From Solwaraspora sp. WMMD406 (GTDB taxonomy: Bacteria; Actinomycetota; Actinomycetes; Mycobacteriales; Micromonosporaceae), in assembly GCF_029626025.1 (NCBI RefSeq), contig NZ_JARUBF010000001.1:3844001-3908000 (forward strand): a stretch of 64,000 nt of DNA. The letters are read 5' to 3'. Position 1 is the first letter of the stretch, and every line of letters begins with the position of its first letter. The notes beneath the pieces were generated by a model, which did not search any database, was not told where the DNA came from, and was given only the letters and a program-made list of their open reading frames with translations. A program made the translations under genes and the position numbers. Below are positions 28,001 through 50,734 of the stretch, piece after piece.

Positions 28001-31000
28001 GTCGCGCACGTCGCCGCCACCGACGACTTCTACGCCCTCGGCGGCCACTCGCTGCTCGCCGTCAGGTTGGCCGGCCGGGTCCGGGCGGTGCTCGGGGTCG
28101 ACCTACCGATCGGCGCGATCCTGGCTGCACCCACGGTCGCGGCTCTCGCCGCGCGCCTCGACAGCGTGCGGACCACCCGGCCGCCACTGGTCGCGCGGCC
28201 GCGACCGGAAACGCTGCCGCTGTCGGCCGCCCAGCGCCGGTTGTGGCTGCTCGACCAGATGAGCGCGGCGAGTCCCGCCTACCACATCCAGCTCGGCGTA
28301 CGGATAACCGGAGATCTGGACCCCGACGCGCTCGTGGCCGCGGTGGCCGACGTGTCCGCTCGGCACGAAAGCCTGCGGACCACGGTGCCGATGGAGGCGG
28401 GTGAACCCTGTCAGCGGATCGACGACCGGCCACAGCGGCTCGTCGTCGTCGACCTGGCCGCCGCTGATCCGTCCGCCGTCGACCAGGCTGCTGTCGACCG
28501 GGCTGCTGTCGACCGGGCTGCTGTCGACCAGGCTGCCGTCGTGCTGGCCGCCGCGCTGACCGAGGCCGCGACCATGCCGTTCGCCCTCGACCGCGATCAG
28601 CCGATGCGCGCGCGGCTGTACCGGTTGGCACCGAACCGGCATGTGCTCCAGGTGGTGGTGCACCACATCGCCGCGGACGGCTGGTCACTGGGTCTGCTCG
28701 CCCGGGACCTCGGCGTCGCGTACGCCGCGCGCCGCACCGGCCGGACACCCGACCTGCCCGCCCCGGCCGTGCAGTACGCCGACTACACCCTGTGGCAGGC
28801 ACTGGTCCTCGGCGACCCGGACAGCGCCGAATCGCTGGCCCACCGGCAGCTGGCCTTCTGGCGTACCCGCCTGGCCGGGCTCCCCGCCGAGGTGCTGCCG
28901 GCCACCGACCGACCCGCTCCGGCGCAGGCCTCGGCGGACGCCGCCACGATCTCGTTTCCCCTCGGACCGGAACTGCTCACCGGGTTGGCGAACGCCGCAC
29001 GCGACCACGGGTGCACCACCTTCATGGTGCTGCACGCCGCTCTGGCCGCACTGCTGACCCGGCTGGGCGCCGGCACCGACGTCCCCGTCGGCACACCCAC
29101 CGCCGGGCGGGTCGACCCCGCCACCGAGGACCTGGTCGGTCTGCTCGTCAACACCGTCGTGCTGAGGGTGGACACCAGCGGCGATCCGACGTTCGCCGAG
29201 CTGCTGGACCGGGTCCGCGCCGTCGACGTGGCGGCGTACGACAACGCCGACGTGCCGTTCGAACAGGTCGTCGAGGCGCTCAACCCGACCCGTGGGTCGG
29301 TCCGGCATCCGCTGTTCCAGACGATGCTCACCGTCAACACGACGCCACCGCCGTCGCTGCGTCTGCCGGGCCTGACCGTCGAACGAATGGACACCGAACT
29401 GCCCGGCGGTGCCAAGGTCGACCTCGCCCTCACCGTGACCGGCCCGCAGGCCACGATCGCGTACGCGACCGACCGCTTCGACGAGTCCACGATGCGGCGG
29501 TTCGCCGAGCGGTATGTCACCCTGCTGTCGGCGATGCTCACCGACCCGCGTACCAGGATCGGTGCGGTGGATCTCCGCGACGACGCCGAGCGCGGACTGC
29601 TCATCCGGATCAACGACACCTCCCGGCGGGTCCGTGACGTCACCGTGGTCGCGCTCTTCGAGGAGACGGTCGCCCGAACTCCGCAGGCTCCGGCCCTGTC
29701 CGAATCCGGTGTGACGCTGACCTACGCGGAACTGGACCGCCGCGCGAACCAGGTCGCCCATCACCTCATCCGGCTCGGCGCCGGGCCGGAGCGGATCGTG
29801 GCCGTCGTCCTGCCCCGGTCGGCCCGGTGCGCGGTCACGCTACTAGCGGTGTTGAAGACCGGTGCCGCGTATCTGCCGCTGGATCCCGCGCATCCGCCGG
29901 CCCGGCAGGCCGCCGTGCTGGCGGACACCGGACCGGTCTGCGTCGTCACCGAGACCACCGCGAGGATCCAGACTGCCGCGACGATCCCGACCGCCGATCG
30001 CGCTACCCGGGTCGTGCTCGACGATCCGTCCGACATGACCCGGATCGACGCCTGCCCGACGACCGCCCCGACCGACCGCGACCGGATCTCACCGCTGCGA
30101 CCGGCCAATGCCGCGTACGTCATCAGCACGTCCGGCTCCACCGGCACACCGAAGGGCGTGGTCGTGGAGCACCGGTCGCTGACCAACTTCCTCACGCTGG
30201 CCGCCACGGAGTTCCCGCACCTGCGCGGGGTAGCCCTGCTGCACTCGCCGCTGACCTTCGACTTCACCATTCCGTCGTTGCTGGTGCCGTGGACAACCGG
30301 GGGACAGGTGCACGTCGCCGACCTTGAGGCGGCGGCCGACGGGCCCACACCGACGTTTGTCAAGATCACACCGAGCCATCTGCCGCTGCTCGCGACGGTC
30401 GCCGCCGCCGCGCCCACCGGGGAGCTGATGGTCGCGGGCGAACAACTGCACGGTGCCGCGCTGGCCGCGTGGCGCGAACGGCACCCGGACACACCGGTGA
30501 TCAACGAGTACGGGCCGACCGAGACGACGATCGGAGCCACCGCGTACCGGATCCCCCCGGCCACGGTGCTGCCGTCCGGCCCTGTCCCCATCGGTCGGCC
30601 ACTGTGGAATACCACCGTGCACGTCCTCGACGACCGACTCCGACCGGTTCCGCCGGGGGTGCCGGGGGAGTTGTACATCGGTGGCGCGGGCGTCGCTCGC
30701 GGCTACTGGCGCCGGTCCGGGCTGAGCGCGACCCGCTTCGTCGCGAATCCGACCGGACCGCCGGGGACCCGCCTGTACCGGACCGGCGACCTGGTCCGAC
30801 TGCGTGGCGACGGCGAGTTGGAGTTCCTCGGTCGCGTCGATGCCCAAGTCAAGGTCCGTGGGCACCGGGTCGAACTCGGCGAGGTGGAGGCGGTGCTCGT
30901 CGCGCACCCGGCGGTCGGGCGCGCGGTCGCGGTGGCGCGCGGGGATCGGCTCGACAGCTACGTGGTGAGTGTGGGCGACGCCGTGCCCGACCCGCAGGAG

Positions 31001-34000
31001 GTACGGCGTCACGCGGCGGCGTACCTCCCGGCACCGCTGGTTCCGACAGTGACCGTCCTTACCGATCTTCCGCTGACCGCGCACGGCAAGGTCGACTCCG
31101 CGCGTCTGCCCGCGCCGACTCCGGGCGGGGCCGGTCGTACTCCGGACACCGCACGCGACACGGTGCTCGCCGGCCTGTTCGCCGATGTGCTGGGGTTGCC
31201 GCAGATCGGGCTGGACGACGACTTCTTCGCCCTCGGCGGCCACTCGCTGCTCGCGGTACGGCTGATCGGCCGGATCCGCGACGTTTTCGGTGTCGAGGTG
31301 TCGGTGGGGACGCTCTTCGCGGCTCCGACCGTCGCCGGCCTCGGGTCCGCACTCGGACCGGCTCTCGGGTCCGCCGCCGGACCGGCTCTCGGGTCCGCCG
31401 CCGACGGCGGTGCCGTCGCCGTCCGCCCTCGGCTGGGCCCGCAGATCCGCCCGCCCCGGCCGCCGCTGTCGTACGCACAACGACGGCTGTGGTTCCTCAA
31501 CCGGCTGGACCCATCGACGGCGTACCATGTTCCGCTCGCGGTGCGGCTCACCGGAGACCTGGACCAGGAGGCGTTGCGCCGGGCCTTCGCCGATGTGGTC
31601 GAGCGGCACGAGAGCCTGCGCACCGTCTTCCCCGTGCACGACGACGAGCCGTACCAGCTCATCCTGCCGGCCCCCGTCGAGTTGACCTGGGACGCCGACG
31701 GCACGGTCGAGGAACTGGTGCGCCGGCCCTTCGATCTGACACAGGCACCTCCGCTGCGGGTTCGTCTGCTGTCGTCAGGGCCGAACGAGCATCTGCTGCT
31801 GGTGGTGATGCACCACGTCGTCGCCGATGGCGGGTCCTGGCTGCCGTTCCAACGCGACCTCGCCGCCGCCTACGCCGCGCGTCGCGTCGGACGGGCTCCC
31901 GAGTTCCCGCCGCTCGCGGCACAGTACGCGGACTACGCGGTGTGGCAGCGACGCGTTCTCGGGTCGCCGGACCAGACCGACAGTGTCGTGAGCCGACAGA
32001 TCGCGTTCTGGCGGCAGGCGCTCGCGTCCGCACCGGCCGAGGTACGGCTGCCCGCCGACCGGCCACGACCGCCGACCACCGGCGGCCGGGCGGCCCGGAT
32101 ACCGTTCACCGTCGACGCCGCGACGCACGCCGCGGTGGCCGCGCTCGCCCGCGCCCACGACGTGACCGTGTTCATGGTGGCGCAGGCGGCGTTGGCGGCG
32201 ACCCTGACCCGCAGCGGCTCGGGCGTGGACCTGCCGATCGGTACGCCGGTGGCGGGGCGCGTCGACCCGGCCACCGAAGACCTCATCGGGTTCTTCGTCA
32301 ACACGCTCGTGCTGCGTACCGACGTGTCGGGCGATCCCACCTTCGCCGAACTCCTGCGCCGGGTGCGCGCCGTCGCGCTGGCCGCCTACGAGCAGCAGGA
32401 TGTTCCCTTCGAACTGCTGGTCGAGGCCGTCAATCCGCCCCGGGACCTCGGCCGTCATCCGTTGTTCCAGGTGATGCTGTCGTACCAGTCGGCGATCGCC
32501 CGCCGTCTGGAGCTACCAGGGCTGAGGGTCGTCACCGAACAGGTCGACGCGGGCGCGGCCAAGTTCGATCTGTTGGTGGACCTGACCGAGCGCCGCGACG
32601 AAGACGGCGCACCGCTCGGCCTGTATGGGGTGGCCGAGTACCGCACCGACATGTTCGACCACGACACGGTGAGCGAGTTGGTCGCCCGGTTCGGCCGGCT
32701 CCTGACGTCCGTCACCGCCGACCCGGAGCAGCGCGTCGGCGCGATCGAACTCCTCACCCGGCGGCAACGGGCCGCGCTCGCCGCGACCGACATCGTCGAC
32801 CCGGCCCGGATCGAACAGGTCCTGTCGGCACACCCGCTGCTGGCCGAGGTCTCGGTGGCGGTGCGCAACGATCCGTCCGGAGACCGCGTGCACGCGTACG
32901 TCGTGCCCCGACCCGGCTACCTGGTCGAGGCCAGCGACGTACGGGCGTACGCCGCCGACCGGCTCGCCGCGAACGCGGTTCCCCGTACCGTCGAGGTCGT
33001 CGCGGTGCGGGACGGCGCGGCGGGTACGGACGGCGTGACGGGTGCGGACATCGCGGTCGGTGCCGACAGCGTGGAGCGGCCGCGCCGGGGTGGGCCGGTC
33101 GACCCGTACGAGGATCTGCTCTGCGGAATTGTGGCGGACCTGCTGCGGCGTCCACGCGTCAGTGCCGACGACGGCTTCTTCGCGCTCGGCGGGCATTCGC
33201 TGCTCGCCGTCAACCTCGTCGACCGGCTACGGTCCGCGCTCGGGGTGGACGTGCCGTTGCGGACCGTCTTCGAACAGCCGACGCTGGCGGCGCTGGCCCG
33301 CCGACTCGTCGACGCCAGGTCCGTTCGCCCGCCGCTGATCCGGCTGGACCGGTCCGGCCCGGTGCCGCTGTCGCCCGCGCAGCGGCGACTGTGGATCCTG
33401 CACCGCACCAGCGGCGTGGCCGGGGACTACGCTATCGCGCTCGCCCAACGGCTGACCGGCCCGCTGGACGTCGAAGCCCTCGCCCTCGCTCTCGCCGACG
33501 TCGTCGAACGGCAGGACACCCTGCGGACCGTCTTCCCCGAACGCGACGGTGTCGCGGAGCAACTCGTCGTCGAGGTGCCCGTTGCCGACCTACGGCCGGT
33601 CGACGTACCCGGGGACGACCTGCCACGGCTGCTCGCCGAGCTTCGCGCCGAACCGTTCGTTCTGGCGATCGACCCCCCGGTACGGGTCCGGCTGCTGCGC
33701 GTGGCTCCGGACGTACACGTGCTGGTCCTGGTCGTGCACCACATAGCCGCTGATGGCGCGTCGTTGGCACCGTTGGCGCGGGACCTGAGCGCGGCCTACC
33801 GGGCACGCGCCAGGGGGCACGCGCCGGCGTGGTCGGCGCTGCCGGTGCGCTACCGCGACTACGCTCACTGGCACGTCGAGGTGGTGGCCGACCAAGGCGC
33901 GGCGCAGCGCCACTACTGGGGCGACCGACTCGCCGGACTGCCGGTCGAGATCGACCTCCGCGCCGACCGTCCCCGGCCGACGGTCAGCGACGGAGCGGGC

Positions 34001-37000
34001 GCCGACCTCGACTTCGCGGTGGACGCGGCGACCCACGCACGCCTGGTCGCCTTCGCCCGCGAGCATCAGGCGACACTGTTCATGGTCCTGCACGCCGCGT
34101 TGGTGGCGACGCTGACCCGGTCCGGTGCCGGCCCGGACGTGCCGGTGGGCACCCCGTTCGCCAACCGGACCGGCGGTATCACCTCGGATCTGGTCGGCTT
34201 CTTCGTCAACACGCTCGTGTTGCGGGTCGACACCGCCGACGATCCGAGCTTCGCGGCGCTGGTCGGTCGCGTCCGCGAGGTCGACCTGTCCGCGTACGAC
34301 CATGCCGATCTCCCTTTCGAGCAGGTCGTGGAGGAGCTGAAGCCGCCCCGGCACCCGGCCCGGCATCCGCTGTTCCAGACCATGCTGGTGCTGAACTCGG
34401 GCCGCGCGCCCAGGCTCGAGCTGCCAGGCCTGTCCGTCGAAGCCGAACCGGTCCCCGGCGGTCCGGCGGCCTTCGACCTCACCTGGACCTTCGCCGACCG
34501 CTACGCCGCCGACACCCCGGCGGGCATCACCGGGTCGTTGCGGTACGCGGTGGCGCTGTTCGAGGAAGCCACCGCCCGTACGCTCGTGGATCATCTCCAG
34601 CGCCTACTGGCTACCGCGGTGGACAATCCGCACCGGCCGGTCTCGACGCTGGACCTGCTCGGCTCGGTGGAGCGGCACCGCCTACTCACCGAGTTCACGG
34701 ACACGACGCGACCGATCGACCCGGCCACGCTGCCGGCCCTGTTCGAGGCGCGGGCCGCCGCCGACCCCTCGGCCCCGGCCCTGCTGACCGACGGCGAGGC
34801 GGTGACCTACCGGGAACTCGACCTTCGGGCCAACCGACTGGCGTACCACCTGATCGAAGAGGGCGTCGGCCCGGAGAGCATCGTCGCCGTCGTGCTGCCG
34901 CGCTCGGTCGCGGCGGTGATCGCCGTCCTCGCGGTGGCCAAGGCCGGCGGTGCGTTCCTGCCGCTCGACCCGGACCTGCCGGCCAGCCGGACGGCCAGCC
35001 TGCTGGCCGCCGCGCGCCCGACACTGGTGCTGGACAGCCTCCGAGGGTGGGAGAGCGGGCCGGCTTCCCGCCCGACCGACGCCGACCGGCGAGCCTCCCT
35101 ACGCCCGGACCACCCGGCCTACGCCGTCGCCACCTCTGGATCGACGGGGGTGCCCAAGGTGGTGCTGGTGACCCACGCCGGCATCGCCAACCTGGCTCGC
35201 GCTCAAGGGCAACGATGGGCCCTCGGGCCGGGGGGCAGGCTGCTGCAGTTCTACGCGCCGGGTTCGGACTCGGCGGTCTCCGAGACCCTCACCGCTCTGC
35301 TCAACGGGGCAGCACTGGTCCTGCCACCGGCCGGGTTGCGGTCGGCGGAGGAGACCGCCGAGGTGATCGTCCGGCACCGGGTGAGCCACGCCGCGCTTCC
35401 ACCGGCGATGTTGGCCACGCTGGCGCCGGACAGTCTGCCGACCGGTCTGACGCTCGTCGTCTCGGGTGAGGCGTGCGCGCCGGAACTGGTCACCCGGTGG
35501 GCCGCCGGCCGCCGGATGATCAACGCGTACGGGCCCACCGAGGTGACGGTCTGTGCGACCCACAGCCCACCACTCGATCCCGGTGACCATCCGACGATCG
35601 GCGCGCCGATCGACAACGTTCGTGCCTACGTACTCGACGCGGCCTTACGGCCGGTGCCGATCGGGCACGTGGGCGAACTGTACGTGGCCGGCCCTGGCCT
35701 GGCCCGGGGCTATCTGCACCGGCCCGGCCTGACCTCGGCGTGGTTCGTCGCCGATCCGTTCGGCGCACCGGGGCACCGCCTGTACCGCACCGGTGACCTG
35801 GTCCGATGGCGGTCGGTCGGCACGCTCGACTTCGTCGGGCGCGCCGACGACCAGATCAAGATCCACGGCCATCGGGTGGAACCCGCCGAGATCGAAGCGG
35901 CCCTGCTCACCTGCCCCGGTGTTCGGGCCGCGGCGGTGGTCGCCCGGGACGACCGCCCCGGTGGACGCTACCTGGCCGCGTACGTCGTGGCGGCACCGGA
36001 TGTCGAGCCCGACCTCGCCGAGCTGCGGTCCACGATGGCGCGGCAGCTGCCGCCGGCGATGGTGCCAGCCGTGTTCTCGGCGGTGGCGGCGTTGCCCCTC
36101 ACCGGTGCGGGCAAGGTGGACCGGCGTGCGTTGGCGGCCTTCGATTCCCCACCTCGCCGGACACCGTCCGCGTCAGACCTGCCGCGTCGTCCGACGGCCG
36201 TTCCGGCGGACAACGCACGTACGCTGGCCACGATCATCGGTGGGCTGTTCGGCCGGGACGACGTCGGCGTCGACGAGGAGTTCTTCGCCCTGGGCGGCGA
36301 CAGTGTCATCGCGATCCAGCTGGCGAGCCGGGCCCGAGCGGCGGGCCTCGTGCTCACCCCACGGGACGTACTCGAGCACCAGACCGCGGCCGCGCTGGCC
36401 GCTGTGGCGAGGCCGGTCGTCGTTCCCACCGTGGACGCGGCCGCCCCGTCGGGTCCGGTGCCACTCACCCCGATCGTCCACTGGCTGCGCGAGCGCGGCG
36501 GTGACGTCGACACCTTCAGCCAGGCCGCCATCGTGGTGGTGCCAACGGGGCTGGATCGCGCCCAGTTCGTCGCCGGCCTGCAGGCCATGCTCGACCACCA
36601 TGACGCGCTACGGATGCAGCTGCACTGCCCACCAGGTGGCTACTGGGCGTTGACCGGCCGGCCGGCGGGGGCCGTACCGGCGGATCCGTTGGTGCACCGG
36701 ATCGACGCCGCGAGTCTGACCGACGTCGATGCATACGCCGGGACCGACGTCGATCCTGCCGCCCACGACGCCCTCGACGCCGACGTCCGGCGGCGCACTG
36801 TCGCGGCGGTCGCGGCCGCCCGCTCCCGCCTCGACCCTGCGGCCGGGACCCTGGTCCAGGCGGTATGGGTCGACCGTGGACGGACCCGCACCGGCCGGTG
36901 CGTACTGATCATCCACCACATCGCCGTCGACGTCGTCTCGTGGCGCATCCTCCTGCCCGACCTGGCCGACGCCTGGCGTGGGCAGACTCGTGGCGCGCCG

Positions 37001-40000
37001 GTGGCACCCGCGCCGGTCGGCACCTCGTATCGACAGTGGGCCGAACACCTCGTACGGGACGCCCAGGATCCGAGGCGGCTGGCGGAGATGCCCTTCTGGA
37101 CGACACTGTCGTCCGACGGCGAGGAACCGCTGAGCACCCGTTCGTCGACGGCGACGGGGCAACCGGCCCTGCCCAGACGGACGCTGCGCCGCGACCTTCC
37201 GGTAGCCCTCGGTGCCGGCGTGCTCGACCGCGCCGCTCGGGCCTTCCACGCCGGCGTTTCCGAGTTGCTGCTGGCTACCCTTGCCCTCGCCGTCAGCAGA
37301 TGGCGCGGGGCCACCGGCAGGCAGGGCGGGTCGGTGTTGGTGGACGTCGAGGGACACGGCCGGGTCGAACGGCCGGGCATCGACCTGTCCCGCACGGTCG
37401 GCTGGTTCACCAGTGTGCATCCGGTCCGCCTCGACCCGGGTCCGGACCCGGGTGAGGGCGATCACGCGGCGGTCGCCGCGGCGGTCAAGCGGATGAAGGA
37501 GCAACTGCGCGCCGTACCGGACCAGGGCATCGGCTACGGCCTGCTGCGGTACCTGAATCCGCAGACCGCGACGGTGCTCGCGGCGCTGCCCCGGCCGCAG
37601 ATCGGTTTCAACTTCCTGGGCCGGGTTCCGGCGGAGCAGGCCGGCCAGCTGGCAACCGCAGCGGCGACGACCGAGGTAACGGTCGAGCCGGCTGCGGAGG
37701 CGTCGACCGGCGGGTCGGCAGCCCGTACCCACGCACTCGAGATCACCGGGTACGCGGTCGACACGTCCGACGGACCGACGGTGACCCTGATCCTGACCAG
37801 TCCGCGTGACCTTTTCGCCGACGAGGACCTGACCGGCCTCGCCGACGCCTGGTCGGCGGCGCTGCGGGAGCTGGTCGCTTGTGCCGACAGCGGCCTCGGT
37901 GGACGGTCTCCCAGCGATCTGCGGCTCTCCCGCCTGAACCAGGCGAGCATCGACGAGTTGGCGGCCCGATGGCCCGGCTACGTCGACGTGCTGCCGCTGA
38001 CCCCCCTACAGGAGGGCCTGCTCTACCACCTTCAGGCCGATCCGGACCGCGCGGACGTCTACGCCGTTCAGCTCGCTGTCGACCTGTGGGGCGAGCTGAA
38101 CCCCGCTTCGCTGCGGCGCGCCGCAGCGGCGCTGCTCAGCCGGCATCCGGCGCTGCGGGCCGGCTTCTGGTATCCCCGGTCGGGCCGTCCGGTGCAGGTG
38201 ATCCCCGCCTCGGCGGAGCTTCCGTGGACCGAGGTCGACCTGTCGGCTGATCCGGATCCGGAGGAACGGGCGGTCAGACTGGCCGTCGAGGAACGGACCC
38301 GTCGCTTCCGGGTCGACACCCCACCGCTGCTGCGCTTCGCGTTGCTGCGCCTCGGCGAGCGGCACCATCGACTGGTACTGACCAACCATCACCTCCTGCT
38401 GGACGGGTGGAGTGTGCCGCTCGTGCTGCAGGACCTGCTGGCCGCCTACACCGGTGTGCCGATGCCGCCTCGGCCGCCCCTGCGCGACTACCTGTCCTGG
38501 CTCGACAGCCAGGATCTCGACGTCGCAGGGGCCACCTGGCAGCGGGCTCTGGCCGGTCTGGCGGCCGCGCCGCTGGTGGCCCCGGCGGTCGCTGGTCGAG
38601 CCGCCACCGAGAAGGTGAGTCAGCAGCTCACCGAACACCTGCCGGCGGATGTGACGGCGCGGCTGCGTCGTGTCGCCGTCGCGCACGGTCTCACCCTGGC
38701 CAGCGTCCTGCGGGTGGCCTGGGCGGCGGTGGTGGGCCGGCTGACCGGGCACGACGACGTGGTGTTCGGCGGCACCGCCGCCGGACGGCCGGACGAGCTG
38801 CCAGGCGTCGAGAACGTCATCGGGCTGATGATCAACACCTTGCCGGTACGGGTGCGGCTGACTCCGGCCGAACCGATGCGGGCGGTGGTGGACAGGGTCC
38901 AGCACGAGCAGGCGGCGCTGACACCGTACCGGCACGTGGCCCTGTCCGACGTGTGCCGCCGTACCGGCCTCGATCCGCTGTTCGACACGGCGATGGTCTT
39001 CGAGAACACTCCGGTCCATCGCGCGCCGTCGGCGGTCGCCGGCGACCTTCGGGTGGGCGACGTACGCGGTCACGACGCCGCCCACTATCCGCTCAACCTC
39101 AACTGTGGTCCGGACGGGGATCGGCTGCGCGTACGGCTGGACCACCGGCCAGATCTGCTCCCGGGCGGTACGGCGGAGCGGGTGATGGGCTGGCTGCGGC
39201 GGTTCCTGGTGGCCTTCGCGGCGGATCCGGACCGTCCGTTGGGCACGGTCGTGTTCGACGATCCCGTCCCGTCCGGTTCGTCGTCCGCGCTGTCCGCGTC
39301 GTCCTCATCCCTGCCGGGTACCGTGAGTGACATCTTCGCCGCCGTGGTCGCGGCGACACCCGACGCCCCCGCGCTGGTCCACGGCCCACGTACGCTCAGC
39401 TACGCCGACCTCGACCGGGACGTAGCCGCGACGGCGAGCGGGCTGCGTGCCGCCGGGATCGGCCCGGGTCGCCTGGTCGCGCTCACGCTGCCCCGATCGA
39501 TCGAGCTGATCGTCGCGATGCTGGGCGTGCTGCGCGCCGGAGCGGCCTACCTGCCGATCGACCCGGCCTACCCGGATCCTCGGCGGAAGGCGGTACTCGC
39601 CGACGCGCGGCCCGCGCTCGTCGTCGGTCCGGGTGACCTGTCCGCGCTGATGCGAGCCGGGGCCCAGGGCGATCCCGGGCCCGGGCCGCGTCCGGACGAC
39701 ACGGCGTACGTCATCTACACGTCGGGCTCGACCGGCGCACCGAAGGGCGTCGTGGTGACCCACGCCGGCGTCGGTCGGCTGTGTGAGACCCAGCGGGCTC
39801 GACTCGGCGCCGGTCCGGCCGCCCGGGTCATGCAGTTCTCGTCACCCGGATTCGACGCGGCGTTCTGGGAGCTCGGCATGGCGCTGCTCACGGGCGGGAC
39901 GTTGGTGCTGCCTCCCGGGCCGTTGATCTCCCCGGCCGAACTGCCGGACCTGGTCTGTCGCCACGCGATCACGCACCTGACGATTCCGCCGTCGGCGCTG

Positions 40001-41860
40001 GCGACGATAGCCTCCGGTGCCCTGCCGCCGTCGTTGACGGTCGTGGTGGCGGGCGAGGCGTGTCCCGCGCCGCTGGCCGCGACGTGGGCACGGCACCTGC
40101 GGCTGCACAACGCGTACGGTCCGACGGAGGCGACGGTCTGCGCGACGCTCAGCGCGCCGCTGCGGGACGACCCGCGTCCGCCACCGATCGGTGACCCGGT
40201 GGCCGGCACCGGGCTGCGGGTGCTCGGCGGCGCGCTGCGTCCGGCTCCGGCCGGTGAGCTCTACCTGGCTGGTCGCGGCCTGGCCCGCGGTTACCTGGGA
40301 CGGCCCGGACTGACCGCGACCAGGTTCGTCGCCGACCCGTACGGCCCACCCGGGTCCCGGATGTACCGCACTGGTGACCGCGTGCGCCGCCGCGACCTCG
40401 GTGAGCTGGATTTCGTCGGCCGCGTCGACGATCAGGTGAAACTCCGTGGCTTCCGCATCGAGTTGGGCGAGGTGGAGGCGGTCCTGTCCCGCCACCGGCG
40501 GGTCGTCGCGGCGGCCGTGGCACTCCGTCCGGACCGGCGCGGCGAATCCCAGCTAGTGGGCTACGTCGTCGCCGACGGAGCGGACCTGGACCTCGACGAG
40601 GTGCGGATCTTCACCGCGCGGCGACTACCCGACCACATGGTCCCCACCGCGCTGGTCGTCTTGGACGCGTTGCCGACGACGCTCAGCGGCAAGCTCGACC
40701 GCAGGGCTCTGCCGGCGGTCGCGGACGGCGCCGATGCGCGGGCCGCGACCTCAGCGGCGATAGCGGCGATCCCCGTTTCGGCGATCCCCGTTTCGGCGGC
40801 CAGCGCGCCTCGGACCGCCGCGCCTCGGACCACCGGAGAAGACATTCTGTGTCGGCTCTTCGCCGAGGTGCTCCAGGTGCCGTCGGTCGGTCCGGAGCAG
40901 AACTTCTTCGACCTGGGCGGCCATTCACTGCTGGCGGCTCGGCTGATCGCCCGGATCCAGGCGACGACGGGGGTGGCGCTGTCGGTGGGTGGGCTCTTCG
41001 ACGCGGCGACGCCGGCGGCACTGGCCCGCCGACTCGACACCGGCCTGCCCCGCGACCAGGCCTGGGACCTGCTGGTTCCGCTGCGCGCGGGGACGGGTGG
41101 CACCCCGGTCTTCTGCGTTCACGCCGTGGCGGGACTCAGCTGGAGCTACGCCGGACTGATCCGCCATCTACCGAGCGAGTTTCCCCTCGTCGGGGTGCAG
41201 GCACGGGGTTTCGCCGAACCGGGATCGTTGCCGTCCTCGATCGAGGAGATGGCCGCCGACTATCTACAACAGATCCGCCGCCTGCGGCCAACCGGGCCGT
41301 TCCACCTTCTCGGCTGGTCGTTCGGCGGACTGGTCGCCCACGCGATCGGTGCCGAGTCGCATCGGCTCGGCGAGCCGACCGGGGTGACGGTGTTGCTCGA
41401 TGCGATGCCGGTCGTTCCCGGTGCCGGACCGGGAGTTCCCCGGGAGACCGAGCTGCTGGCCGGCGTGCTGCGCGCCGCCGGCCTGCCCGTGGCGGAGTCG
41501 GAGTGCCCGAGTCGGGCGGAGGTGGTCCGACTGCTCCGGCAGGCCCCGCACGAACTGGCCCGGCTCGCCGCCGACCGGCTGGATGCCATCGTCGATGTCA
41601 GCGGCAACAACGCGCGGCTCGCCCACCGTTACACACCCGGTCCGGTTCCCGCCGATGTCCTGCTCTTCACGGCCCGGGAGCGGACCGGACCGCCGCCGGC
41701 CGACCTGTGGCGCCCGTCGCTCACTGGACGGGTCAGTCATTACACCGTCGGTAGTACGCACGACGGGATGCTCGACGAGGCCGCGTTGGTCGAGATCGGG
41801 CCGATCCTGACCCGTGAGCTCACCCTCTTCGAACGCACGAGTTCCTCGGAGGAGCGATGA
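25022..41860 (+). CDS. Nonribosomal peptide synthetase 2, modules 5-9 with TE (C-A-T, C-A-T, C-dA-T, C-A-T-E, C-A-T-TE)
   Basis: This NRPS has 5612 aa. Approximate layout: C5 7-446 (HHLLLDG at 143, D-acceptor type after an E domain), A5 457-967, T5 Ser1010; C6 1063-1523, A6 1540-2035, T6 Ser2075; C7 2143-2580 (HHVVADG), an A-domain remnant 2585-2692, T7 Ser2726; C8 2778-3217, A8 3233-3708, T8 Ser3761, E 3810-4287 ([22 protein letters not shown]); C9 4318-4757, A9 4768-5234, T9 Ser5302; TE 5350-5612 (GWSFGG, Ser5433, THDG near the end). Pockets by eye: A5 DVWSIGMVH (Thr-like), A6 DFPKMAEIG (unassigned, shares Lys278/Glu322 with Asn/Asp types), A8 DSSAVSAVC (unassigned), A9 DAWTVAAVC (Phe). GGAGG lies 7 bases before the ATG. 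The stop shares ATGA with the next gene. TE should release or cyclise the chain. Confidence 0.93.
28481..28540 (+). repeat. Four 15-bp tandem units inside C6 of NRPS2
   Basis: The unit GACCGGGCTGCTGTC and its GACCAG variants occur four times in frame, coding for repeats of D(R/Q)AAV. They form an insert in the C domain before HHIAADG. Confidence 0.85.
31340..31402 (+). repeat. 24-bp tandem repeat in the T6-C7 linker of NRPS2
   Basis: About two and a half in-frame copies code for (A)[17 protein letters not shown] just after T6. The repeat lies in the flexible interdomain linker. Confidence 0.75.
32775..33095 (+). pseudogene. Remnant of an adenylation domain in module 7 of NRPS2
   Basis: Between C7 and T7 there are only about 107 residues in place of a roughly 470-residue A domain. 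They align with the A-domain C-terminal subdomain from just after A8 ([35 protein letters not shown]), but the phosphate loop, A4-A8 and the A10 lysine motif are all missing. The reading frame is intact, so this is an in-frame deletion, not a frameshift. C7 keeps HHxxxDG and T7 keeps GGHS, so the module can still condense if T7 is loaded in trans. Confidence 0.85.
35645..35647 (+). promoter_or_regulatory. TTA leucine codon in NRPS2 (A8)
   Basis: Codon 3542 (DAALRPV) is TTA, in frame, in a gene that otherwise uses CTG/CTC. In streptomycetes TTA codons make translation depend on the bldA tRNA. It is the only in-frame TTA I noticed in the operon. Confidence 0.7.
40764..40793 (+). repeat. 15-bp tandem repeat in the A9-T9 linker
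   Basis: CGGCGATCCCCGTTT occurs twice exactly, in frame, coding for [11 protein letters not shown] second short repeat ([10 protein letters not shown]) follows. Confidence 0.8.
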
Positions 41861-43122
41861 CCAAGGACCTTTATCCGTTGGGAGAGATCCCACCCGTCGG
41901 CGAGGTGCCGGCGCGCATGCACGCGATGGTGATCCGCCCGGAGCGGTTCGGACCGCCGGAGAAAGCCATGCGGCCGGAGGTGGTGGAGACGCCACGACCC
42001 GGTCCGGGCCAGGTGCTGGTGATGGTGATGGCGGCCGGTGTCAACTACAACAACGTCTGGGCGGGACAGGGCCAGCCGGTCGACGTGATCGCGGCCAGGA
42101 CGAAGCTCGGCGATCCGACCGGCTTCCACATCGGTGGATCCGACGGTGCGGGAGTGGTGTGGGCGATCGGCGCGGGCGTCCGGCACGTCGCGGTGGGTGA
42201 TCACGTGATCCTTTCCCCGGGACAGTGGGACGAGACCGCACCAGACATGCGCATGTACGGTGATCCGGGTTACAGCACGAGCGGCCTGGCCTGGGGCTAC
42301 GAGACGAACTACGGATCGTTCGCCCAGTTCTGTCTGGTCGACGACTACCAGTGCCATCCCAAGCCAACGGGTCTGACCTGGGAAATGGCCGCCTGCTTCC
42401 TGCTGACCGGCGCTACGGCGTACCGCCAGTTGTGTGGTTGGCCCCCGCACGTCGTCACGCCTGGCGATCCGGTGCTGGTCTGGGGTGGCGCCGGCGGACT
42501 CGGGTCGATGGCGATCCAGATCGTACGACGGTTCGGCGGCCGGCCGGTCGCGGTGGTCTCCGACGAGTCGAAATACGAGTACTGCCTCGGACTCGGTGCG
42601 GTCGGTGTGGTCAACCGCAGCCACTTCGACCATTGGGGACGGCTGCCCGACGTGACCGACACCGCTGGGTATGCCCGCTGGTCGCGCGGGGCTCGTGCCT
42701 TCGGCCAGGCGGTGTGGGAGGCGCTGGGGGAGCGGGTGCCACCCAGGATCGTGTTCGAGCACCCGGGAACGGACACCATGCCGACCTCGCTGTACCTGTG
42801 TGCTCCGTCCGGGATGGTGGTGACCTGCGGCGGCACCTCGGGCTACAACGGCGACATCGACCTGCGTTTCCTGTGGATGCGGCAGAAACGTCTCCAGGGT
42901 TCCCACGGGGCGAACACCCGGCAGTTCCGGGCCGTCGTCGACCTCGTCGCCGCCGGGGACATCGTTCCCTGCCTGGCCGGTACGGCGTCGTTCGCCGAGA
43001 TTCCCTGGGCGCATCAGTTGATGTACGAGAATCGCCATCCGCGAGGTAACCAGGCGGTTCTCGTCAACGCTCCGACGGTAGGTCTGCGGGACCTACCAGC
43101 AGCCGCTCCGGCGGTTGGCTGA
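41857..43122 (+). CDS. Crotonyl-CoA carboxylase/reductase homologue
   Basis: This 421-aa medium-chain dehydrogenase/reductase aligns over its whole length with CCRs: [29 protein letters not shown], the NADPH loop [18 protein letters not shown] and [10 protein letters not shown]. Of the CO2-pocket residues known in CCRs, Asn (VNYNN), Glu (YETN) and His (GSH) are kept, and the Phe before Glu is Tyr here. CCRs reduce and carboxylate 2-enoyl-CoAs to alkylmalonyl-CoAs. No polyketide synthase is in the window, so the product's use is unclear: an unusual acyl or amino acid precursor, or plain enoyl reduction. Start ATG shares ATGA with the NRPS2 stop, with GGAGG upstream, so it is translationally coupled. 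Confidence 0.85.
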
Positions 43123-43171
43123 CCGCTGTTCCCGGCCCGACCGGGCCGGGGTCGACTCCGAAAGGACGATG

Positions 43172-43393
43172 ATGACGACGAACCCCTTCGACGACGAGGA
43201 CGGCACGTTCTTCGTGCTGATCAACGACGAGGCCCAGTACTCCCTGTGGCCCACCTTCGCCGACGTCCCGGCCGGCTGGACCGTGGTCTTCGGGCCGGAC
43301 AGCCGCGCCGCCAGCATCGAATACGTGGAGGAGCACTGGACCGACATGCGTCCGCGCAGCCTGGCCGAGGCGATGGACGGCAGGCAGGACTGA
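43172..43393 (+). CDS. MbtH-family NRPS chaperone
   Basis: The product is 73 aa with the family signature: [17 protein letters not shown], then QYSLWP, PAGW, and the C-terminal WTDMRPRSL. MbtH proteins bind adenylation domains and are often needed for their solubility and activity. It lies in the operon 49 bp after the CCR gene and directly abuts the P450 gene. The ATG at 43172 is preferred over the adjacent ATG at 43169 because AAAGGA (43161-43166) is better spaced. An upstream in-frame ATG at 43115 lies within the preceding gene and is unlikely. Confidence 0.95.
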
Positions 43394-44638
43394 ATGCCGG
43401 GCACCCTGTCCTCGCGGAGCGGGACGGTCGGGGAGGTGGACCTGGCGGATCCCGGGTTGTACGCGCGTGGTCGTCCGGAACCCGTCTGGGCGGCGCTGCG
43501 CGCCCGTGGCCCGGTGTACCGCAATCGACGTCCCGACGGCACCGTGTTCTGGGCGGTGTTGAGTCACCGACACACCGTCGAGGTGCTCTCGTCGCCGGAG
43601 ACCTTCGTGTCCGAGCGAGGAATGCGCCTCGACGGTGACCCCGCCGCTGTCCGGGCGGCGGCCGGAAAGATGATGATCATCAGCGATCCACCTCGGCACG
43701 AACGCATCCGACGCCTGGTCAACACCGCGTTCACGCCCCGCGTGGTGGGGCGATTGCGGGACACGATACGGCGTACGGCGGCGGAGATCGTCGCGGACGA
43801 GGTGAAGGCAGGCGGCGGCGACATCGCCGCGGCGGCGGCACGGCTGCCGGCGTCCGTCGTCGCCGATCTGCTGGGGGTGCCCCGAGCGGACTGGCCGTAC
43901 CTGCTCGAGCGGACGATGGTCGCCTTCGGCGCGGCCGACGACGCCGACGCGTCCCAGGACCGGCGGCCGGCGAAGATCGCGCAGGCGCACACCGAGTTGT
44001 TCGTTTACTTCACCGATCTCCTCGCGCAACGACGTGCGGACCCGGCCGACGACGTGCTGAGCGCGCTCGCCCACGGTGAGATCGACGGCCGGCCGCTCAC
44101 CGAAGAGGAGATCATCCTCAACTGCAACGGACTGATCTCCGGCGGCAACGAGACCACCCGCCACGCCGTCCTCGGCGGGCTGCTGGCCTTGACCGACCAT
44201 CCGGACCAGTGGCGGCGACTGCGAGCCGACCCGGGTCTGCTGGCCACCGGGGTGCCAGAGGTGCTGCGATACACGAGCCCGGCGATGCACGTCCTACGGA
44301 CGGCGGTACGGGACGTCGATCTCGGTGGAGCGCGGATCGCCGAGGGCGACCAGGTCGCCTGCTGGCTGCCGGCGGCGAACCGCGACGAGATGGTCTTCCA
44401 CGAACCGGACGCCTTCGACGTCGCTCGGCGCCCCAACCGGCACCTGGCGTTCGGCCACGGCCCCCACTTCTGCCTCGGATCCGCCCTGGCCACCGCCGAG
44501 CTGAACGCGTTCTTCGCCGAGCTGCTCGACCAGGTGCACGAGGTGGAACCAGTGGCCCCGGCCCGGCGGATGGCGTCGAACCTCATCTGGGGATTCTCGG
44601 CTCTGCCGGTACGACTCACGCCAAAGGAGGCCGGATGA
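43394..44638 (+). CDS. Cytochrome P450 (first)
   Basis: This 414-aa soluble bacterial P450 has the I-helix motif SGGNETT, the K-helix EVLR, and the heme-binding loop FGHGPHFCLG with Cys360. Its start directly follows the MbtH stop, and its end shares ATGA with the thioesterase-like gene. It resembles P450s that hydroxylate amino acids bound to carrier proteins, the NikQ/NovI type, by overall look and context only. Likely targets are the residue held on the stand-alone A-T protein or a residue on an NRPS T domain; the sequence does not decide. It needs ferredoxin partners not encoded here. Confidence 0.9.
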   Translation: MPGTLSSRSGTVGEVDLADPGLYARGRPEPVWAALRARGPVYRNRRPDGTVFWAVLSHRHTVEVLSSPETFVSERGMRLDGDPAAVRAAAGKMMIISDPPRHERIRRLVNTAFTPRVVGRLRDTIRRTAAEIVADEVKAGGGDIAAAAARLPASVVADLLGVPRADWPYLLERTMVAFGAADDADASQDRRPAKIAQAHTELFVYFTDLLAQRRADPADDVLSALAHGEIDGRPLTEEEIILNCNGLISGGNETTRHAVLGGLLALTDHPDQWRRLRADPGLLATGVPEVLRYTSPAMHVLRTAVRDVDLGGARIAEGDQVACWLPAANRDEMVFHEPDAFDVARRPNRHLAFGHGPHFCLGSALATAELNAFFAELLDQVHEVEPVAPARRMASNLIWGFSALPVRLTPKEAG

Positions 44639-45372
44639 GCGGCTGGTTGTTGCGCCGCCCGGACCGCGCGGCAGGCAGTTATCTGTTCTGCCTGCCGTAC
44701 TCCGGAGTCGGCGCGTCCATGTACGCCCGGTGGCCGCGCCACATCGGTCCGGCCCAGATCTGTCCGGTGCAACCACCCGCGCGGGAGAACCGCATCGCCG
44801 AGCCGCACTACGGCACCTACGAGGCGTTGGCCGAGAGCCTGGCCGCCGATCTGCTGCCGTGGCTGGATCGTCCCTACGCGTTGTTCGGTCACTGCAGTTC
44901 CGCCCTGGCCTGCTACGCGACCGCGCTGCACCTGCACCGCAGCGGCGCGCGACCACCTGTCAGGTTGTTCGTGTCGTCGCAGGTCGCGCCGCACGACGGC
45001 CCGCATGGCCGGTTCCTGACGATGACCGACGGAGAGTTGGCCGAGGAGCTGGCCAGTCTGGTCCGCGCGATGGGCGGCGAGCCGAACGCCGCCTATCTGG
45101 ACATGTGGCTGGACGTCCTGCGCGCGGACGTCGCGGCCAACCGGCGGTACCGGCTCGAACGTCCACGACGACTGCCCGTGGCGATCACCGTGATCGGTTG
45201 GAGCGACGACCGCGAGGTCCCCACCGACCTGATGGACGGGTGGAGCAGCTACTCCGACCAGGTTCGGTACGTGACGCTCAGCGGCGGGCATCACAGCTTC
45301 CTGTCCGCACCCCTGGCCCTGCGGGGAGAGCTGGCGGCCGACCTGAAGGAGAGCGTGGATGCGTACCGTTGA
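44635..45372 (+). CDS. Thioesterase II-like protein with a Cys nucleophile, candidate aminoacyl shuttle
   Basis: The product is 245 aa with the type II thioesterase pattern: FCLPYSGVGASMYARW near the start, a nucleophile elbow, WSDDRE with Asp191/192 and GGHHSFL with His219. The elbow reads FGHCSSA where type II thioesterases have FGHSMGA, so the nucleophile position is Cys87. Cys at this position is known in the aminoacyl transferases SyrC and CmaE, which move an amino acid from a stand-alone A-T protein to another carrier. The neighbouring A-T gene overlaps this one by 14 bp, and module 7 of NRPS2 lacks an A domain, so such a shuttle would make sense. A plain proofreading thioesterase remains possible; Ser88 or Ser89 could also be read as the nucleophile. 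Confidence 0.85.
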   Translation: MSGWLLRRPDRAAGSYLFCLPYSGVGASMYARWPRHIGPAQICPVQPPARENRIAEPHYGTYEALAESLAADLLPWLDRPYALFGHCSSALACYATALHLHRSGARPPVRLFVSSQVAPHDGPHGRFLTMTDGELAEELASLVRAMGGEPNAAYLDMWLDVLRADVAANRRYRLERPRRLPVAITVIGWSDDREVPTDLMDGWSSYSDQVRYVTLSGGHHSFLSAPLALRGELAADLKESVDAYR

Positions 45373-47158
45373 TCAACTCGTCGCGGCACAGGCGGACCTG
45401 CGCCCGGACGCGGTCGCGGTCGACGGTCCCGGTCGTCCGCCGGTGACGTACGCGTCCCTCGACACACAGGCCGGTCGGGTCGCGGCGGGGCTGGCCGCGC
45501 GGGGAATCGGCCCGGGTGACACGGTCGCGCTGACCGCGTCCCGGCAGGTGTCGACGATCGTCGCGCTGCTCGGGATTCTACGGGCGGGCGCGGCCTACCT
45601 GGCCCTCGACGCACAGCTGCCAGCCGAGCAGCGGGAGCGGATCCGCCGGGACGCCGGGGCGACGGTGTCGCTCGACGACGCCGCCTGCGTCGAGCTGTGC
45701 GGCCACGATCCCGGACCGACGGCCGGCCGGCGGAGCGCGGCCCACCCCAGCGGTACGGCGTACGTCGCCTACACCTCCGGCAGCACGGGTCGACCCAAGG
45801 GCGTCCGGATCCCGCATCGGGCGGTCTGGCGGCTGGTTCATCGACCCACCTACGTCCAGGTGGGGCCCGGCGACGCGGTGCTGCACGCCGCACCGCTCGC
45901 CTTCGACGCGTCGACCTTCGAGATCTGGGCACCGCTGGCCGCCGGCGCGCGGATCGTGCTGCCGCCCGCCGGAGCCCTGTCGCTGGCCGACCTCGCCCAG
46001 GTCATCCGGGAACACCGGGTGACCATCGCCTGGTTCACCGCCGGGGTGTTTCACCAGATGGTCGACACGCAGATCGAGGCACTGGCCGGTCTGCGGTATC
46101 TGTTGGCCGGCGGCGACGTGCTCTCCGCCGCACACACGGACCGGGTCCTGGCCGAGCTGCCCGGCGTACGGTTGGTCAACGGCTACGGTCCCACCGAGAA
46201 CACCACGTTCACCTGTTGCCATCGGGTCACGGATCCGGTCGGGACCGGCCCCGTACCGATCGGTCCGCCCATCGACGGAACCACCACGTACATCCTGGAC
46301 GGCCGGCTGCGGCCGGTGCCGGACGGCCACATCGGAGAGCTGTACACCGGCGGCGAGGGGGTGGCGACCGGTTACGCCCGACGGCCGGGAGCCACCGCGC
46401 GGCGCTTCCTCGCGGATCCGTTCGCCCGGTCCGCCGGGGCGCGGATGTACCGGACCGGGGATCTCGCGCGTCGCCGTCCCGACGGGACGCTGGAGTTCCA
46501 CGGTCGGGTCGACCGACAGGTCAAGATCAGCGGCTTTCGGGTCGAGCCCGAGGCGGTCGAGGCGGCGCTCGTGGCGGCGGACGGCGTCCGCGACGCGGCC
46601 GTGGTCGCCACGCCGTCGGTCACCGGCACCCGTCGCCTGATCGCTTTCGTGGTGCTCGATCCGATCCTGCCGGCGTCGCTGTTGGCGCTGCGGCGCACTC
46701 TGCGGGAGCAGATGCCGGCGTACGCGGTGCCGTCGTCGCTGGTCCCGGTCGACCGCCTGCCGCTCACCGGCAACGGCAAGGTCGACCGGGCGGCGCTCGT
46801 CGCTCGTCCGGTGTGTCAGGAGCGCAACGTCACCGCGCCCTACGTCGCGCCCCGGACCCCGGTGGAGGAGGCGCTCGCCACGCTCTGGATGGATCTGCTG
46901 GAGGTCTCGTCGGTCGGTGTCGACGACGACTTCTACGAACTCGGTGGGTACTCGCTGGTGAGCATGCAGATCACCAACGAGGTGGCGGACAGTTTCGGGG
47001 TCGCCGTGGCTCCCCGGTCCTTCTACGAGAACCCGACGGTGGCCGGACTCGCCCGACTCGTCGAGCGGGCAAGCACCGTCGTCGAGCGGGGAAGCACCGT
47101 CGCGGAGCGGGGAAGCACCGTCGTCGAGCGGGGAAGCATCCCGGCGGAGCGGACATGA
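45359..47158 (+). CDS. Stand-alone NRPS A-T didomain, predicted Val-activating
   Basis: This 599-aa protein has an A domain at about residues 1-480 ([32 protein letters not shown]) and a thiolation domain with LGGYSL, phosphopantetheine site Ser532. The pocket read by eye is DAFWLGGTF, one step from the classic Val code DAFWIGGTFK; Ile is possible. It has no C or TE domain. Such free A-T proteins usually hold an amino acid for tailoring, for example beta-hydroxylation by a P450, before transfer. Here it lies between a Cys thioesterase-like protein and a P450. It may load the A-less module 7, or act as the starter for C1 of NRPS1. The C terminus ends in four 7-residue repeats. Confidence 0.9.
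   Translation: MRTVDQLVAAQADLRPDAVAVDGPGRPPVTYASLDTQAGRVAAGLAARGIGPGDTVALTASRQVSTIVALLGILRAGAAYLALDAQLPAEQRERIRRDAGATVSLDDAACVELCGHDPGPTAGRRSAAHPSGTAYVAYTSGSTGRPKGVRIPHRAVWRLVHRPTYVQVGPGDAVLHAAPLAFDASTFEIWAPLAAGARIVLPPAGALSLADLAQVIREHRVTIAWFTAGVFHQMVDTQIEALAGLRYLLAGGDVLSAAHTDRVLAELPGVRLVNGYGPTENTTFTCCHRVTDPVGTGPVPIGPPIDGTTTYILDGRLRPVPDGHIGELYTGGEGVATGYARRPGATARRFLADPFARSAGARMYRTGDLARRRPDGTLEFHGRVDRQVKISGFRVEPEAVEAALVAADGVRDAAVVATPSVTGTRRLIAFVVLDPILPASLLALRRTLREQMPAYAVPSSLVPVDRLPLTGNGKVDRAALVARPVCQERNVTAPYVAPRTPVEEALATLWMDLLEVSSVGVDDDFYELGGYSLVSMQITNEVADSFGVAVAPRSFYENPTVAGLARLVERASTVVERGSTVAERGSTVVERGSIPAERT
47063..47146 (+). repeat. Four 21-bp tandem units at the end of the A-T gene
   Basis: Units at 47063-47083, 47084-47104, 47105-47125 and 47126-47146 code for ER(G/A)STV(V/A) repeats, the last being ERGSIPA. 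The tail follows the T domain and directly precedes the overlapping P450 start. Confidence 0.9.
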
Positions 47159-48402
47159 GAATCACGCGACCAGCCGGCGACGACCATGTCGACATCGACA
47201 AGGTGGACCTGTTCGACCCCGGCTGGTACGCCGACGGCGACCCGCACCCGGTCTGGCACTGGTTGCGGGTGAACGCTCCGGCGCACCGGCAGACCCTGCC
47301 CGACGGACGGCGGTTCTGGTCGGTGACCCGGCACGCCGACGCCTGCCGGGTCCTGCGGGACCACGAGACGTTCACCTCGGAACGCGGCACGCTGCTGTGC
47401 GCACTGGACCGGGGCGACCCGGCCGGCGGCAAGATGATGGCCGCGACCGACCCCCCTCGGCACGCGCTGCTGCGGGAGCCGCTCAACCATGCCCTGTCAG
47501 CTCGCGCTTTGGCGCAACGGTCCGAGATGCTCCGGTCGGCGGTCCGTACCGCGCTCGATCCGGCCCGCGACGGGGGAGTGTGGGACCTGGCGGCGGCTGC
47601 GGCGCGGCTGCCGATGGCGTTCACCGGCACGCTCATGGGGCTGCCGGAGCAGGACTGGCCGGATCTGATCCGATGGACCTGGGCCGCGATCGCCCCCGAC
47701 GATCCGGACTTCGGCACCGGTGATCCGGACACCACGCTGGCGACGAGCCACCACGCGCTGTTCGGATACTTCCGCGATCGGATCCGCCACCGCGATCCGG
47801 CCCGTGACGATCTCGTCGGCACGCTGCTGGGCATCCGCCTCGACGGCCGGGAACTGCGCCTCGACGAAGCCGTCTACAACTGTTACAGCCTGCTGCTGGG
47901 TGCCAACGTCACGACGCCGCACGTGATCTCGGCGAGCGCGGCGGCGTTCGTCGCCGACCCGGACGCCTACCGGCGGCTGGTCGACGACCCGGGACTCGTG
48001 GACCGTACGGTGGAGGAGGCGCTGCGCTGGTCCTCGCCGGCGAACCACTTCATGCGCTACGCGATCCGGGACACCACGGTTGCCGGGCGGCGGATTTCCG
48101 CCGGCGAGGCGGTCGCGGTGTGGCTGGGTTCGGCCAACCGGGACGCGTCGGTCTTCGTCGATCCGTACCGGTTCGACGTGACGCGCTCGCCGAACCGGCA
48201 CATCGCCTTCGGGTACGGTCCCCATTTCTGCGTCGGGGCTCCACTGGCCAGGATCGTGCTGCGGATGGTGTTCGCCGAGATGCGTCGGGTCGTCACCAAT
48301 TTCGAACTGGCCGGTCCGGTACGGCATCTGCGGTCGAACTTCGTCGCCGGGATCACGCGTCTGCCGGTGCGGACGAGTCTCGCGGGTGGTGACGGCAGAT
48401 GA
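47155..48402 (+). CDS. Cytochrome P450 (second)
   Basis: This 415-aa P450 has the heme loop FGYGPHFCVG with Cys359 and the K-helix EEALR. The I-helix reads LLLGANVTTPH, so the usual acidic residue before the Thr pair is replaced (NVTT for (D/E)TT), which may affect oxygen activation or mark a special subfamily. The start shares ATGA with the A-T gene and its stop shares ATGA with the methyltransferase gene. Context points to hydroxylation of the A-T-bound residue or of the peptide. It is similar in overall layout to the first P450, and the two probably have different sites. Confidence 0.9.
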   Translation: MRITRPAGDDHVDIDKVDLFDPGWYADGDPHPVWHWLRVNAPAHRQTLPDGRRFWSVTRHADACRVLRDHETFTSERGTLLCALDRGDPAGGKMMAATDPPRHALLREPLNHALSARALAQRSEMLRSAVRTALDPARDGGVWDLAAAAARLPMAFTGTLMGLPEQDWPDLIRWTWAAIAPDDPDFGTGDPDTTLATSHHALFGYFRDRIRHRDPARDDLVGTLLGIRLDGRELRLDEAVYNCYSLLLGANVTTPHVISASAAAFVADPDAYRRLVDDPGLVDRTVEEALRWSSPANHFMRYAIRDTTVAGRRISAGEAVAVWLGSANRDASVFVDPYRFDVTRSPNRHIAFGYGPHFCVGAPLARIVLRMVFAEMRRVVTNFELAGPVRHLRSNFVAGITRLPVRTSLAGGDGR

Positions 48403-50636: not shown

Positions 50637-50734
50637 CGGGCGGCGCCTTTCCGGCCCCGGGCGTCGAGGCAGCCCAGGCGGACCGGGCGGCTCCGACCCG
50701 TGGGCCACGACGGGTGAGGAACTCTGCAGCTGTA

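Follow-up and report, generated by a model that had tools for sequence, protein, structure and literature searches.

In syringomycin biosynthesis, the nonribosomal peptide synthetase (NRPS) SyrE contains a module without an adenylation (A) domain that is served by SyrB1 and SyrC (PMC8949500), and CmaE is the shuttle of the CmaA/CmaE/CmaD system for coronamic acid (PMC8748450). Transfer by a type II thioesterase (TEII), LgnA of the legonindolizidine cluster, has been demonstrated by intact-protein mass spectrometry (MS) (PMC8748450). Trans-acting A domains have been described for WS9326A (PMC7539972), for which the proposal of a WS5/WS20 shuttle is cited in PMC10956176, and delivery from a stand-alone adenylation–thiolation (A-T) protein through a shuttle to an A-less module has been proposed for PM130391 (PMC10609185). 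Hydrolytic TEIIs and KtzF have been treated together (PMC4147253). In the polyoxypeptin and aurantimycin clusters, a thiolation (T) domain, a cytochrome P450 (P450) and a thioesterase (TE) for 3-hydroxyleucine are read as a system of release followed by re-activation (PMC3943440, PMC5031334); deletion of plyQ, plyR or plyS abolished polyoxypeptin production, and the TE triad is given as S/C-D-H (PMC3943440). Here we describe a 64,000-nucleotide stretch of Solwaraspora sp. WMMD406 (NZ_JARUBF010000001.1, positions 3,844,001 to 3,908,000; hereafter the window), in which an NRPS with an A-less seventh module is followed by genes for a stand-alone A-T protein, a Cys-type TEII and two P450s. This cassette is real and well organized and is probably functional for trans-loading.

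Module 7 of the NRPS assembly line

Two NRPS genes together encode nine modules, of which eight have an in-line A domain, as determined by the domain search. The relevant features, comprising condensation (C), A, T, epimerization (E) and TE domains, are as follows.

10792..25020, + strand: NRPS1, (C)-A1-T1-C2-A2-T2-C3-A3-T3-C4-A4-T4-E4 (open reading frame and domain search)
25022..41860, + strand: NRPS2, C5-A5-T5-C6-A6-T6-C7-(A remnant)-T7-C8-A8-T8-E8-C9-A9-T9-TE (open reading frame and domain search)
31463..32779, + strand: condensation domain C7 with an intact HHVVADG motif (Pfam PF00668, 3.3e-93; motif search)
32810..33001, + strand: remnant of the C-terminal subdomain of A7 (PF13193 AMP-binding_C, 64 residues, 34.9 bits, cut-off 24.5)
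33116..33307, + strand: carrier domain T7, LGGHSL with the attachment serine (PF00550 PP-binding, 65.7 bits; motif search)

Both A subdomains are present in the eight other modules, and the Pfam scan found no AMP-binding core in module 7. Neither the A8 hinge motif nor the A10 lysine motif, both of which are seen in the aligned A5, A6, A8 and A9 domains, is present in the A7 remnant. C7 and T7 are separated by 112 residues, so that the A piece of about 107 residues proposed in an initial annotation of this DNA was a fair estimate. A frame break caused by the loss of A7 was ruled out, as the NRPS2 frame is open through the junction. As judged by this domain content, module 7 is unable to load itself. 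Eight further NRPS regions of the same genome (part of the genome only) contained no other A-less C-T module, and thus no recipient other than T7 is apparent.

The stand-alone A-T protein, the Cys-type thioesterase and the P450s

The genes located 3' of NRPS2 encode, in order, a crotonyl-CoA carboxylase/reductase (CCR)-type enzyme, an MbtH-like protein, P450a, the TE, the A-T protein, P450b and an O-methyltransferase. The central members are as follows.

43172..43393, + strand: MbtH-like protein (candidate starts 43169 and 43172; motif search alone)
43394..44638, + strand: P450a, with the canonical I-helix motif GGNETT
44635..45372, + strand: Cys-type TEII, proposed aminoacyl shuttle, with C87, D192 and H219 (PF00975, 82.2 bits)
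45359..47158, + strand: stand-alone A-T didomain protein, pocket DAFWLGGTFK, T motif LGGYSL (open reading frame, pocket and motif reading)
47155..48402, + strand: P450b of the cassette P450 lineage, I-helix motif GANVTT (profile and alignment)

The MbtH-like gene stops immediately before the start of P450a. From P450a onwards the genes overlap end to end, by 4 bp (P450a/TE), 14 bp (TE/A-T, 45359..45372), 4 bp (A-T/P450b) and 4 bp (P450b/O-methyltransferase), the 4-bp overlaps depending on the start codons chosen; because of these overlaps, the block looks translationally coupled. The free A-T protein with a Val-type pocket, the TE-like protein carrying Cys at residue 87, the 14-bp overlap of their genes, the adjacent P450s and the reduction of module 7 to C7, T7 and a piece of an A domain had all been recognized in the initial annotation and are borne out here.

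The pocket of the A-T protein belongs to the type D[AP]xWxGG[TC]FK, which we take to be a Val pocket. This type occurs in none of the eight in-line A domains, the pockets of which read DAWTIAAVC, DFWNIGMVH, DLTKVGEVG, DIYQLALIY, DVWSIGMVH, DFPKMAEIG, DSSAVSAVC and DAWTVAAVC. The substrate is most likely Val and possibly Leu. The pocket does not settle this choice, because azinothricin modules with a Val-like code take 3-hydroxyleucine (diperamycin; PMC10888640). Hydroxy-Val as residue 7, in line with the hydroxylated Val-like amino acid suggested earlier, is plausible.

By sequence, the window TE is a type II enzyme: it is a stand-alone α/β hydrolase scoring 82.2 bits against PF00975 (cut-off 26.4), and the closest solved chains in the PDB search are 3qmw/3qmv, followed by 3fla/3flb (RifR). 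The GHSxG serine motif of TEIIs is replaced by GHCSS, with Cys87 in FGHC, and the protein is a Cys variant of the TEII family and not a standard TEII. SyrC and CmaE have a Cys nucleophile. The window enzyme shares this trait in an α/β hydrolase-type protein with aligned and conserved C87, D192 and H219. The SyrC-type shuttle named in the initial annotation is thus matched in its nucleophile and needs correction in so far as the enzyme is, by sequence, a RifR-like TEII.

Cys87 had been singled out for comparison with TEIIs, and a sharp separation was found among 83 distinct TE stretches obtained from the TE relative searches plus the clusters fetched by then. All 46 stretches scoring at least 140 bits have Cys (45 by pattern and L058 by reading), and all 37 below 140 bits have Ser (35 by pattern and 2 by reading). 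In a tree of the 69 rows scoring at least 60 bits, a branch with 100/100 support separates the Cys rows from all others. When 29 of the 46 clade members were aligned, C87 and D192 were invariant (29/29) and H219 was present in 28. Relatives of the TE were detected in 9 of 396 genomes in the phylum search (E 1e-25) and in 15 of 101 in the search of relatives, the own genome being included in both, and at 30 loci in a GTDB contig scan, which is biased to Cys since one of its six patterns held the Cys motif. No Cys-TE was found in the six congeners searched, among which G422 has a Ser TEII, and the distribution of the gene is thus patchy. The view of the Cys-TE as an ordinary editing TEII was rejected, as a separate, lower-scoring (Ser-type) TEII is also present in 13 of the 30 scanned loci.

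Among the five best solved relatives of P450a, 4l0e and 3mgx rank third and fifth, with 5li6 between them and two CYP125MRCA entries first; 4l0e and 3mgx lead the relatives of P450b after two CYP125MRCA entries. The closest natural solved relatives of both P450s are therefore of the 4l0e/3mgx type, which we take to be P450sky and OxyD, aminoacyl-carrier P450 hydroxylases. The I helix lacks its usual acid in 29 of 30 P450b-scored rows (GANVTT in the window), the exception being the lowest row (230 bits).

Recurrence of the cassette and association with A-less carriers

In the 30 scanned loci, a gene of the P450b lineage lies within 8 kb of the Cys-TE in 25, an A-T protein within 8 kb in 15 and a lone T domain within 3.5 kb in 11. 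Because the A-T/P450/Cys-TE set is found in other genomes too, its arrangement in the window is not due to chance. An A-T protein with the D[AP]xWxGG[TC]FK pocket is present in 17 of 25 extended Cys-TE regions; near-type pockets occur in G410 (DAFLLGGTYK) and G415 (DAVLLGGSYK), and different pockets are seen in the A-T proteins of G468, G475, G466a and G426b. Of the 37 A-T proteins encoded within 8 kb of a Cys-TE gene, 27 belong, in a quick tree of 134 A domains, to one group of 32 that contains the window protein; the ten outside it have other pockets and come from regions each with another A-T protein. G404 and G439 each carry two Cys-TEs, two C-T/T-C carriers and two A-T proteins with the window pocket type or one near it. 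A C-(A C-terminal)-T remnant arrangement was found twice in G475, a genome of the same family, and also in ser_G193, the TEIIs of which score below the Cys clade.

The 25 regions, from 23 genomes, were taken around Cys-TEs; L016, L021, L024, L040 and the twelve azinothricin-like loci were excluded from extension. They were compared with 24 controls, comprising eight regions of the same genome, six surrounding Ser TEIIs and ten selected solely for C-domain similarity (the search for these gave 4/45 NRPS genomes phylum-wide and then 14/60 at class level); four controls have no C domain. A-less carriers (C-T or T-C) are present in 18/25 Cys-TE regions and 5/24 controls (P = 0.0005; P = 0.003 when only the 20 controls containing a C domain are used). 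Counted by cluster type, in a grouping of our own, the figure is 8/12 (P = 0.03, valid for the C-T/T-C line only). The ten unselected regions were added after the first 14 controls, which alone give a weaker contrast: 3/14 (P = 0.003), 3/10 for those with a C domain (P = 0.053) and P = 0.20 by type. When control G546a, which has a Cys-TE, was moved to the cases, the counts became 18/26 and 5/23 (P = 0.0014).

Several observations weigh against a strict link between Cys-TEs, A-less carriers and shuttling. C-T carriers alone are not significantly enriched (10/25 versus 4/24, P = 0.11), and related clusters are counted separately in all figures except that by type. Seven of the 25 Cys-TE regions contain no C-T or T-C carrier: G400, G401, G410 and G466a show a lone T only, G466a despite two Cys-TEs, and G161, G466b and G468 have neither, with a weak A domain in G161. 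T-C was counted mechanically; in G413 and G475 at least, the T-C start comes after a gene ending in A and represents a split module, both regions being positive through C-T as well. G546a combines a Cys-TE and a P450b-like gene with lone T domains next to complete modules. The His residue is missing in two clade members, L041 and L042. Finally, the A-less C-T modules of the controls ser_G193 and ser_G473 are accompanied by lower-scoring TEIIs only; together with the Ser-type shuttle LgnA, these show that Cys is neither necessary for nor proof of shuttling.

Some relatives carry larger sets of these genes. The same-family genomes G475 and G426 (region G426b) have regions with three Cys-TEs each (L162-L164 and L169-L170), in which several A-T proteins and several P450b-like genes surround a lone T domain, hinting at multi-step oxidation on the carrier. 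In twelve loci (L029, L030, L032, L034-L039 and L041-L043), a P450b-like gene and a Cys-TE gene are followed by polyketide synthase (PKS) genes, with a lone T domain in 11; these look like azinothricin-family clusters. The G546a region (L181-L182), one of the unselected controls, encodes a free A domain, a lone T domain, two C-A-T-E-C-A-T proteins and C-A-T-TE, then T, a P450b-like protein, a Cys-TE and a ketosynthase (KS), an arrangement that matches the polyoxypeptin gene table.

Proposed route and alternative explanations

The window contains a single A-T protein, a single Cys-TE and a single A-less carrier, so that by elimination the first two would serve T7. The best explanation, which we regard as likely, is that Val (or Leu) is loaded by the A-T protein, hydroxylated by a P450 and transferred to T7 by the Cys-TE. 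The A-T protein, probably with MbtH-like help, would adenylate a branched aliphatic amino acid and keep it on its own T domain, where P450b, perhaps together with P450a, would β-hydroxylate the carrier-bound residue. The Cys-TEII would then pick up the hydroxyaminoacyl group on Cys87 and pass it to the phosphopantetheine thiol of T7, and C7 would join the hydroxy residue to the hexapeptide coming from T6. The loss of A7, the intact motifs of C7 and T7, the A-T pocket, the Cys clade and the recurrent partners are read directly from the DNA; each catalytic step, the direction towards T7 and the identity of residue 7 are what we infer from them. Trans-loading through a shuttle, as put forward in the initial annotation, is supported to this extent by gene content, recurrence of the cassette and enrichment of A-less carriers.

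Alternatively, the Cys-TE may be a hydrolase like NikP2 or Bph that frees a β-hydroxy acid for re-activation by another A domain, with T7 being filled by a neighbouring A domain across modules. Hydrolytic release is known for β-hydroxy-His and β-hydroxy-Tyr (PMC4147253), hydrolysis is the published reading for the polyoxypeptin and aurantimycin TEs, which counts against a shuttle, and in capreomycin biosynthesis the A-less CmnI is served by CmnA-A1 (PMC12400406). In the window, however, T7 has no A domain that could re-activate a free acid, and release and re-activation lack an obvious receiver because no in-line pocket resembles that of the A-T protein, though the A4 and A8 pockets lack an assignment. 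With A-less carriers also enriched alongside Cys-TEs, we consider hydrolysis unlikely. There is a slim chance that T7 receives its residue from the A-T protein by direct loading or spontaneous transthiolation, a route proposed for bripiodionen, with the TE only editing: deletion of a nearby TEII left the product unaffected in the bripiodionen system (PMC10956176), and transfer from PacP to PacH is spontaneous (PMC8748450), but LgnB/LgnD transfer required the TEII (PMC8748450), and the Cys-TEs branch apart from the Ser TEIIs and are linked with the cassette. That module 7 is skipped or the cluster decaying, with the A-T residue used elsewhere or unused, would fit the deletion of the A7 core but is very improbable given the active-site motifs and frame kept in C7 and T7 and the want of another recipient among the NRPS regions read.

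A broader claim, to which we give slightly less than an even chance, is that the Cys-type TEII clade as a whole is dedicated to shuttling P450-oxidized aliphatic amino acids from carrier to carrier. It would do so in some dozen kinds of actinomycete cluster, among them those of the azinothricin family, in which the enzyme would move 3-hydroxyleucine instead of hydrolysing it, the published reading. In the azinothricin clusters, the Cys-TE perhaps moves 3-hydroxyleucine out and back between an in-line T domain and the lone T domain. That the Cys clade is a shuttle family is the strongest claim still open. If it is true, a Cys in the GHCxG motif of a stand-alone TEII would be a readable sign that a pre-oxidized residue is fed to an A-less or lone carrier, product predictions for Cys-TE clusters would be corrected, azinothricin 3-hydroxyleucine biosynthesis would gain a new and testable reading, and a portable A-T/P450/shuttle cassette would be available to place β-hydroxy residues.

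Other features of the window

Two genes flank the central members of the downstream block.

41857..43122, + strand: CCR-type enzyme (TIGR01751, 546.1 bits, cut-off 378.55)
48399..49154, + strand: O-methyltransferase (PF01596; Pfam)

The O-methyltransferase possibly methylates the new hydroxyl. No PKS gene was found in the window by a domain scan with a KS profile; the CCR gene and a fused acyl-CoA carboxylase-like gene (3760..9384, named by eye) share the window without one. NRPS1 contains near-identical repeats about 3.1 kb apart (16476..16775/19587..19886, 100%; 18004..18303/21055..21354, 98%), located in a stretch with strong GC skew (16476..21354), which suggests recent module duplication or conversion. 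A transposase-like gene (by eye; 9669..10475, minus strand) lies directly 5' of NRPS1. Two cobalamin riboswitch matches were found on the minus strand: one (60784..60995, 105 bits) upstream of a metE-like gene (58429..60780), and the other (50722..50856, 35 bits) upstream of a gene for a secreted-looking protein (49593..50708), near energy-coupling factor (ECF)-transporter-like genes (53695..57421), all of these genes being named by eye.

Comparison with known systems

In SyrB1/SyrC/SyrE and CmaA/CmaE/CmaD, as proposed for the window, an A-T protein holds an amino acid that a third protein passes to a T domain without an A domain (PMC8949500, PMC8748450). The window differs in that tailoring would be performed by a P450 rather than a halogenase and in that its enzyme is a TEII by Pfam and PDB search. 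Legonindolizidine biosynthesis is similar in combining an A-T protein (LgnB), a stand-alone TEII (LgnA) and an A-less C-T protein (LgnD); the nucleophile of LgnA is Ser77, whereas that of the window TE is predicted to be Cys87, and the text of the legonindolizidine paper does not contain the word P450 (PMC8748450). The Streptomyces systems for rotihibin (RthB/RthD/RthA module 2) and WS9326A (WS5/WS20) likewise have an A-less module, a stand-alone A-T protein and a TEII-like proposed shuttle (PMC8552735, PMC10956176), but their substrates are Thr or Asn, unlike that predicted for the window.

Cystobactamid biosynthesis, as shown in vitro, uses a stand-alone A-containing module (CysH), on-carrier tailoring, the shuttle CysB and an acceptor with a dead A domain (CysK module 3) (PMC7966384). 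CysB is SyrC-like (20% identity, PMC7966384) and myxobacterial, and the acceptor A domain is inactive rather than deleted as in the window. In polyoxypeptin (PlyQ/PlyR/PlyS) and aurantimycin (ArtL/ArtN) biosynthesis, which were compared by gene description and not by sequence, a lone T domain takes the place of the A-T protein, and the ply acceptor module keeps its own A domain. The order plyQ-plyR-plyS-plyT in the ply gene table (T-P450-TE-PKS) is the same in 11 of the loci L029-L043, the TEs of which belong to the Cys clade; the P450s of these 11 loci are 48–49% identical to P450b. A literature search, with subscription papers mostly outside it, found no description of a Cys-type TEII clade, which is a weak negative.

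The principle of delivery is already known, actinomycetes included, from SyrC, CmaE, CysB and LgnA, and has been proposed for WS9326A, rotihibin and PM130391. The actinomycete setting, pointed out in the initial annotation, is thus preceded by these proposals and by LgnA, shown by intact-protein MS (PMC8748450). The new part is the Cys-TEII/P450 variant, which appears to be little described and which the azinothricin-type clusters seem to share.

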